DNA of 39,386 nucleotides from Minisyncoccota bacterium (GTDB taxonomy: Bacteria > Patescibacteriota > Minisyncoccia > JAHIHE01 > JAGLIN01): contig JAGLOZ010000071.1 in assembly GCA_023137595.1 (NCBI GenBank), positions 1 through 39,386 of the forward strand. The letters are read 5' to 3'. Below are positions 6,912-33,736 of the stretch, piece after piece (position 1 is the stretch's first letter; every line of letters begins with the position of its first letter). The notes under the pieces were generated by a model. That model was not told where the DNA came from and did not search any database. It worked only from the letters and a program-made list of their open reading frames with translations. A program made the position numbers and the translations under genes.

Positions 6912-7122
6912 TGTCATTCTGAACTTGGTTCAGAATCTTTCAACTATTACACCAAACAAGTCCATAAAATCATTGAATCTTTCGCTTAGGACGAAAACTC
7001 AATTGCTGTCTTTAGTATAAATAAAAAGATGATTGCATTTGCGTCGTAGACGAAAGGCAATATTAAAATAGGATAAATTGAACCTAAAATATAATAGATT
7101 CTGAAACAAGTTAGAATGACAA
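6912..7122. mobile_element. MITE-like element, family 1 copy A
   Basis: Terminal inverted repeats tgtcattctgaacttggttcagaatct ... agattctgaaacaagttagaatgaca; internal sequence related to 32196-32396. Confidence 0.75.
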
Positions 7123-29861: not shown

Positions 29862-30022
29862 TGTCATTCTTAAACTTGTTTCAGAATCTTTAAGCTGTTA
29901 AATTGAAACAAGTCTATAAATTACCAATATAGAGTTTATTGCGTTGAATATGACTAGATATAGCAGTTAAAAGATTCTGAACTAAGCTTGTCCTGAGCTT
30001 GTCGAATGGATTCAGGATGACA
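29862..30022. mobile_element. MITE-like element, family 1 copy C (divergent/composite)
   Basis: tgtcattcttaaacttgtttcagaatctt ... aagattctgaactaagcttgtcctgagcttgtcgaatggattcaggatgaca. Confidence 0.55.
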
Positions 30023-32142: not shown

Positions 32143-32195
32143 ATTTTTAGGGCTTACGAGTATTTTCGGTTTATATATAATTCAACTCTATGAAT

Positions 32196-32396
32196 TGTCA
32201 TTCTGAACTTGTTTCAGAATCTATTTTCTCTTACGATTAGCCAGGCCCATAAATCACAAAACTTTTAAATGAAGTTGAAAACACAATAGCTGTCATAGAA
32301 AGATAATTGTATTTGCGTTGTAGATGAAAGTATAGTGTTAAATGGCGTAAATTTAACCTAAAACAACAAAGATTCTGAAACAAGTTCAGAATGACA
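32196..32396. mobile_element. MITE-like element, family 1 copy B
   Basis: Perfect 27-bp TIR tgtcattctgaacttgtttcagaatct. Confidence 0.8.
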
Positions 32397-32428
32397 GTTT
32401 AGTGAACTCAGAATAGCGCCGCTGCAAA

Positions 32429-32901: not shown

Positions 32902-32929
32902 TTGACAAATCGGCGATTTTGTATATACT
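32902..32929 (+). promoter_or_regulatory. sigma70-type promoter, probable rnpB promoter
   Basis: TTGACA-16 nt-TATACT. Confidence 0.65.
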
Positions 32930-32937
32930 TAAAAAAG

Positions 32938-33098
32938 TTTAGGGTCTGTCCATAAATAATCTCCACAATTTCATCTCATCTTCACGCCATCTTGGTGTGA
33001 TATGACTCTCAATATATATCAATATCTTTCAATTTTTTTCAAACCAATCTGACATATCTAAGTGAACTTGAGGATATTATTTATGGACGTACTCTAAA
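32938..33098. mobile_element. MITE-like element between promoter and rnpB
   Basis: TIRs TTTAGGGTCTGTCCATAAATAAT / ATTATTTATGGACGTACTCTAAA (20/23 matching when inverted). Confidence 0.65.
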
Positions 33099-33736
33099 AC
33101 GCTTAAGTTTTAAGGTGATAAGCTAGATAATCGCCCAGCACCAAGTTTTACAAGATAATTTGTATCAATAAGTTAAACTTAGTTTTACTAAAATAAATTA
33201 TTGAGTAATATTGTAATGTAAAACTTGGTGCGGGGAGGAAAGTCCGAACACCCATCCCGAGTTTTCGGGATGAAGTAGGCAGTTGTTAACGGCAACCGTT
33301 CCGATTACTCGGGATAGGGAAAGTGCCACAGAGACTATACTACCCAGTACCAAGTTTGTGTATTAGTCAGATATTTTATGCAATAATAAACTTATCTTTA
33401 TAATTGCAATCGTGACCATATTAGTATATAGACTTGGTGCTGGGAAAAGGTGAAAAGTTGAATAATGTTCTAAATCGTTTAACGATTTAGGGCTATATTC
33501 TTTCCTTGTCGGTGACGGCAAGTGATGGTAAACCCTGCCTGGTGCAAGAACAAATCCCTTATTTGGGAAAAAAGTGGTTCGCATGACTTTGTCAGCAATG
33601 ACAAAGCTAGATAGATGATTATCACCCCAATTTCTTTCAGAAGCTGAGCTTCCAATTGGAAGCTCAGCTTCTGAAAGAAATTGGGGAACAGAATTCGGCT
33701 TATTGCTTGTTGCCTTTGAACTCAAGCGTTTTTTTT
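33096..33736 (+). ncRNA. rnpB: RNase P RNA (bacterial type A-like, enlarged)
   Basis: P1 pairing AAAACGCTT.../...CAAGCGTTTT; CR-I GAGGAAAGTCCGAAC; GGGAAAGTGCCACAGAGA; GATGGTAAACCC; TGGTGCAAG; TAGATAGATGAT; CR-V ACAGAATTCGGCTTAT; T-run at the end. Confidence 0.93.

Follow-up and report, generated by a model that had tools for sequence, protein, structure and literature searches.

Rickettsia palindromic elements, as Ogata 2002 is relayed in PMC2229807, are dispersed palindromes of 105 to 146 bp that form long stem-loops and are found in tmRNA and M1 RNA. Intervening sequences of 23S rRNA are known to be excised by RNase III (PMC4990558), and the rRNA genes of the Candidate Phyla Radiation (CPR) hold many insertion sequences, either on top of stem-loops or at their base, over half of them group-I-like and often with homing endonucleases; RNase P and tRNA are not mentioned in that account (PMC11270868). 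Our literature search found no paper joining rnpB, the CPR, and insertion, and none on nested tRNAs in Patescibacteria. Here we describe an rnpB gene in which P3 and P12 have very probably been extended by two non-autonomous MITE-like palindromes, as part of a repeated entry into rnpB, the inserts being tolerated as helix extensions. As far as sequence comparison can tell, the repeated multicopy invasion of one ribozyme in Patescibacteria would be new.

The window, that is, the whole stretch of 39,386 nt that was analyzed, lies on the contig labeled C74 of a 1.1-Mb assembly (G000; 104 contigs, ~95% complete), and an RNase P RNA search of this genome identified the gene in Table 1 as its sole rnpB. 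RF00010 scores the gene at 114.4 bits over 33198-33717, above the cutoff of 100 for class A; the match begins within the P3 insert because P1-P3 are displaced by it, and rnpB covariance searches call for caution, as they put P1-P3 wrongly in insert-bearing genomes. The predicted promoter is conserved in the nearest relative, G001 (neighboring protein 92% identical), which is without the 161-bp element at the corresponding site upstream from rnpB; an interior homolog of that element adjoins a MITE at G001:C24. With the element lying between promoter and P1, the rnpB precursor would have a leader hairpin of ~160 nt. The P19 palindrome comes from a dispersed family unrelated to the P3 and P12 inserts, with related 33- to 42-nt palindromes on contigs C50, C94, C33, and C10; P19 measures ~20 nt in G003 to G007, G009, G010, and G013, with some exceptions. 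Separately, an element with inverted TGTCATTCTGAACTTGTTTCAGAATC ends is repeated in the window (32193-32399, 6912-6976, 7085-7112, and 29873-29989).

Table 1. Features of the rnpB locus in the window
Feature	Position	Strand	Description	Basis
Predicted rnpB promoter	32902-32929	+	TTGACA 32902-32907, 16-nt spacer, TATACT 32924-32929	Sequence reading
161-bp inverted-repeat element	32938-33098	none	Separates rnpB promoter from P1 and covers first P1 bases	
rnpB	33096-33732	+	Class A RNase P RNA; 3' end is a T run	Sequence reading and relatives
P1	33096-33123 paired with 33705-33732			Sequence reading and comparison with relatives
P2, 5' strand	33126-33132	+		Sequence reading and comparison with relatives
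P3 insert	33134-33235	+	102-nt palindrome, A type; CCCAGCACCAAGTTTTAC...GTAAAACTTGGTGCGGGG	
P3 5' shared tip	33134-33148	+	CCCAGCACCAAGTTT; partner strand 33221-33235	
P12 insert	33343-33444	+	102-nt palindrome, B type; CCCAGTACCAAGTTT...AGACTTGGTGCTGGG	
P12 5' shared tip	33343-33357	+	CCCAGTACCAAGTTT; partner strand 33430-33444	
P19	33625-33686	+	62-nt perfect palindrome; third palindromic insert in the window's rnpB	

The near-identical arms that the original prediction reported for P3 and P12 were confirmed in position and in sequence, at 14/15 nucleotides in the 5' arms and 13/15 in the 3' arms. The likeness is limited to the outer ~15 nt, since ungapped comparison over the whole length gives just 45/102 identical positions, and the interiors show no relation beyond these tips (interior z = 1.7). 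Unrelated interiors speak for a chance likeness between two helices lengthened independently, but a composition-matched null reached an arm match of at least 14/15 once in 2,000,000 trials, both inserts are 102 nt long, and the phenomenon recurs independently in G009, G001, G017, and G053, so that chance is barely credible. Constrained convergence, in which a protein, a tertiary contact, or P3/P12 pairing demands similar tips, is likewise highly improbable. The arms are complementary across the two helices, and the isolated duplex of P3 5' with P12 3' has 15 bp at -26.9 kcal/mol, but forcing it makes the fold 10 to 13 kcal/mol worse than the helices' own pairing, and its ensemble probability is 1.5e-8, against 0.999 for P3 and P12 as such; the alternative pairing raised by the original prediction was dropped on these grounds. 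P3 could, moreover, fold shut before P12 is transcribed, and the likeness is missing in relatives, among which G009 shares another sequence.

Fifteen rnpB genes from the same family and order were compared, aligned by conserved anchors, with G014 read separately; relatives were gathered via the sugar-transferase gene beside rnpB, carry the labels Parcubacteria, Paceibacterota, or Patescibacteria, and, like all genomes compared, are metagenome-derived or similar assemblies. The comparison with sister genomes that had been proposed gave a divided answer: most have a short or otherwise filled P3 and P12 (P3 is 16 to 42 nt in G002 to G008, G010, G012, G013, and G016; P12 is 16 to 19 nt in G002 to G006, G008, G010, G013, and G016), and G009 has a P3/P12 likeness of its own with a different arm, CCCCGTTCTAAATTTTACAAGAGAATA in both helices; its P3 and P12 have a 27-nt arm in common. 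The P3 insert of G001 is orthologous to that of the window (88%), and the G001 rnpB has four GCAC-tipped inserts (P3, the P5-P7 junction J5/7, P9, and P19), with an unrelated element at P12. Between its J5/7 and P19 inserts, identity reaches 86% when they are compared in opposite orientation and 62% in the same orientation, so simple helix growth is no explanation. G007 has inserts at J5/7, P9, and P12, of which the latter two are 71% alike and have no clear placement in the A or B type; G012 has inserts at P12 and P19. Homologous inserts are thus found at P3 (G000, G001, and G009), J5/7 (G001 and G007), P9 (G001 and G007), P12 (G000, G007, G009, and G012), and P19 (G001 and G012). The A type comprises the P3 inserts of G000, G001, and G009, the J5/7 and P19 inserts of G001, and the P12 insert of G009; the B type comprises the P12 inserts of G000 and G012, the P9 insert of G001, and the J5/7 insert of G007. 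Other palindrome families behave likewise: in G017, elements related to each other occupy P3 and P12, with many dispersed matches, and in G053 (L059, G053:C60) one hairpin element supplies three 84 to 94% identical rnpB copies, at P3, P9, and the P15-17 region, with further copies dispersed in that genome. The base of insert-bearing helices looks replaced, not merely interrupted, and no clear 4-bp target duplication was seen among the rnpB copies compared. The suggestion that the same palindromic element sits in two permissive stem-loops holds insofar as the same kind occupies other helices and orientations in sisters, but the unrelated interiors argue against P3 and P12 being copies of one element.

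The P3 insert is a member of a dispersed, ~103-bp palindromic, MITE-like family. Outside rnpB, the short palindromic matches given by blastn with the rnpB inserts are ~103-bp palindromes with CCCCGTTCTAAATTTTACA ends. Copies of ~100 to 104 bp are dispersed in G000, G001, G004, G009, G015, G016, and G017; the covariance model R2 matched G000 (C10, C51, and C50), G001 (five matches), G004, G009, G016, G017, and G015 (about twenty). Because R2 had rnpB copies in it, model R3 was restricted to 23 dispersed copies and zero rnpB copies. With E-values taken from a short calibration, R3 matched the full length of the window P3 insert (58.9 bits; E = 2.9e-8 when searched against G000), the P3, J5/7, and P19 inserts of G001 (7e-10 to 2e-8), and the P3 (1e-16) and P12 (5e-9) inserts of G009; it matched G001 P9 weakly (2.7e-4), gave no match to the window P12 insert, and reached at best E = 0.87 on the other palindromes in the window. 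A sequence-only profile recovered the window P3 insert (E = 8.6e-5) and matched no B-type insert, the window P12 insert included. Exact 4-bp target duplications flank 14 of 25 dispersed copies (0 to 1 of 25 in shifted controls), and the 19-bp terminal arms of the dispersed copies are 92.9% paired with 37 double changes, a level reached in 0 of 500 shuffles; duplications and covarying arms together constitute a MITE signature. The family combines terminal inverted repeats, several dispersed copies of similar size, and target-site duplication. When terminal sequences were used to search for an autonomous element, mostly ~100-bp pairs were returned.

The window P12 insert is homologous to the P9 insert of G001 (75%, z = 9.2), the P12 insert of G012, and the J5/7 insert of G007, and clustering places its type beside the G001 P9 insert and apart from the window P3 insert. 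R1, a model of the B type, matches rnpB sites of four genomes; its cross-match to the window P3 insert (E = 4.6e-5) is helped by the common tips. Among the family genomes R1 found no dispersed copy outside rnpB, one weak match in G007 (E = 0.008) aside, and in the class genomes it gave weak matches only. Of the marks of a MITE, dispersed copies outside rnpB were hence not found for the window P12 insert within the family, and for this reason it is judged mobile by the varying helix positions in sister genomes.

Searched with up to one mismatch across the 1.1-Mb assembly, CCCMGYACCAAGT hit the four rnpB arms and one 1-mismatch site on the same contig; except for the latter, the genome has no occurrence of the exact arm motif outside rnpB. 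The original prediction had taken absence of the repeat elsewhere to count against an inserted element, a test that proves misleading, as the exact tip is absent outside rnpB while the family of the P3 element is present. Restriction of the GCACCAAG tip to rnpB in G000, and the lack of any exact copy of the GCACCAAG palindrome pattern outside rnpB in G001, fit a history in which one founding insertion into rnpB was followed by copying or gene conversion among stem-loops, keeping the arms alike in each genome. The rnpB copies of G000 and G001, which form a clade apart from the dispersed copies (97/94), are also in line with it, as are the long arm common to P3 and P12 of G009 and the likeness of J5/7 and P19 in G001. 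However, the G009 copies cluster with dispersed ones, and a single rnpB clade is neither rejected nor preferred (p-AU 0.29); the unrelated P3 and P12 interiors of the window would confine conversion to ~15 nt, the opposite orientations require inversion, and GCACCA tips occur on unrelated palindromes throughout the class. We consider a founding insertion possible but doubtful. Of 384 class genomes, 46 contain the pattern CCMGCACCA-(66-96)-TGGTGCKGG; the reversed control gave none among the matches listed, and CCC[AC]GCACCA tips sit on palindromes with quite different interiors. Because palindromes whose interiors are unrelated often carry such tips, copying within rnpB is unnecessary for the tip match, and two elements with one terminal sequence are preferred; gene conversion between P3 and P12, which had also been suggested, is possible in view of the G000/G001 clade and is not needed to account for the tips.

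Among the 73 GCACCA palindromes of the class for which DNA was retrieved, which are not a random sample, 25 lie in or around RNA genes: 6 in rnpB (G000, three in G001, G012, and G344), 2 in 23S rRNA, and 17 around a tRNA. In G344 (L223, G344:C11, 1500-1606), the rnpB is from another family; its P12 region contains the GCACCA palindrome, and its P19 another one, CCCTCACCACTTTTGC.... The two 23S palindromes (L203, G022:C40; L264, G276:C10) share one peripheral helix, at Rfam LSU positions ~275-285, and a weak R1 match (L284, G148:C64) is also within 23S rRNA. The 17 palindromes CCCGCACCA...TGGTGCGGG (L222, G099:C1; L228-L244) each surround a complete tRNA gene; most have tRNA-like flanks, their position being the anticodon loop, and for five of them (L232, L234, L237, L240, and L241) ARAGORN predicts a tRNA that spans the flanks once these are joined. 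Three tRNAs are nested within each other in G099:C1. Another group of ~105- to 110-bp GCACCA palindromes (L207-L209, L218-L221, and L226) has a common core like AGCCGCAGGCGATTCCG, is without a matching Rfam family, and in some cases has a stem extended by its flanks (GAGCGT...ACGCTC); it may represent an unknown RNA or element.

The presence of hairpins with CCC[AC]GCACCA tips in 23S rRNA and in tRNA-like anticodon loops, class-wide, would also be new if the sequence-based assignments hold, and hints that same-tipped hairpins have invaded 23S rRNA and tRNA genes more broadly. We tentatively speculate that these palindromes are one system residing in hairpin loops of essential RNAs (rnpB, 23S rRNA, and tRNA), sometimes carrying a tRNA, with the host RNA kept working; its sites would be P3, J5/7, P9, P12, and P19 of rnpB, a 23S rRNA helix, and tRNA anticodon loops. 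Were this so, carried tRNAs would make tRNA genes nested, and the host RNA would be saved by tolerance, fragmentation, or insert removal.

For the window's rnpB itself, our preferred explanation is that ~102-bp elements with a common terminal sequence and different interiors enter rnpB repeatedly in the family, presumably transposed by an unseen transposase, and would persist only where the element stem replaces or lengthens a peripheral RNase P helix. As the stem would stand in for or extend such a helix, the catalytic core would be left intact and the inserts tolerated as long hairpins, with a probably near-neutral effect on the RNase P RNA. Target duplications flanking the rnpB copies may have been trimmed by selection for helix continuity, and later copying between stem-loops inside rnpB is possible. 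Inserts could also act as 23S intervening sequences do, with RNase III cutting the stems and the RNase P RNA working from fragments. This idea, which agrees with the main explanation, draws on the near-perfect stems of 15 to 20 bp, on the GCACCA-tipped hairpins within 23S rRNA of other genomes, and on the documented excision of intervening sequences (PMC4990558); we think it conceivable, though on balance unlikely. Since relatives of the inserts occupy other rnpB arms in sisters and one type is also dispersed in the genome, the ribozyme appears to have been colonized by small mobile palindromes. An essential ribozyme of a streamlined genome would then be a repeated target of selfish-looking palindromes, one GCAC-tipped kind reaching up to four sites in a single rnpB (G001), and sister genomes with short, filled, and differently filled sites amount to a natural experiment on insertions into RNase P RNA.

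The elements are like bacterial MITEs (Correia/NEMIS, ERIC, and RUP) in their size of ~100 to 200 bp, terminal inverted repeats, and target duplications without a transposase, and unlike them in the 4-bp length of the duplication, in arms that are nearly all complementary, and in their site in an essential ribozyme. Tandem repeats (STRR), which Vioque is said to have described in 1997, reportedly enlarge P12 of cyanobacterial rnpB; there, too, P12 is expanded by a repeat family, but STRR are tandem heptamers and not a mobile palindrome, with no multihelix spread. The rnpB inserts resemble 23S rRNA intervening sequences in being tolerated hairpins in a peripheral RNA helix (PMC4990558), although the latter belong to rRNA, and they differ from the CPR rRNA insertions (PMC11270868) in being ~100-nt palindromes. 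The closest parallel, likened by the description available in PMC2229807, is offered by the Rickettsia palindromic elements, which are dispersed palindromes in both protein and RNA genes, RNase P RNA included; the elements described here differ from them in occurring in another phylum, in filling several helices with several copies per rnpB and recurring in sister genomes, and in the 4-bp duplications of the P3-type family.
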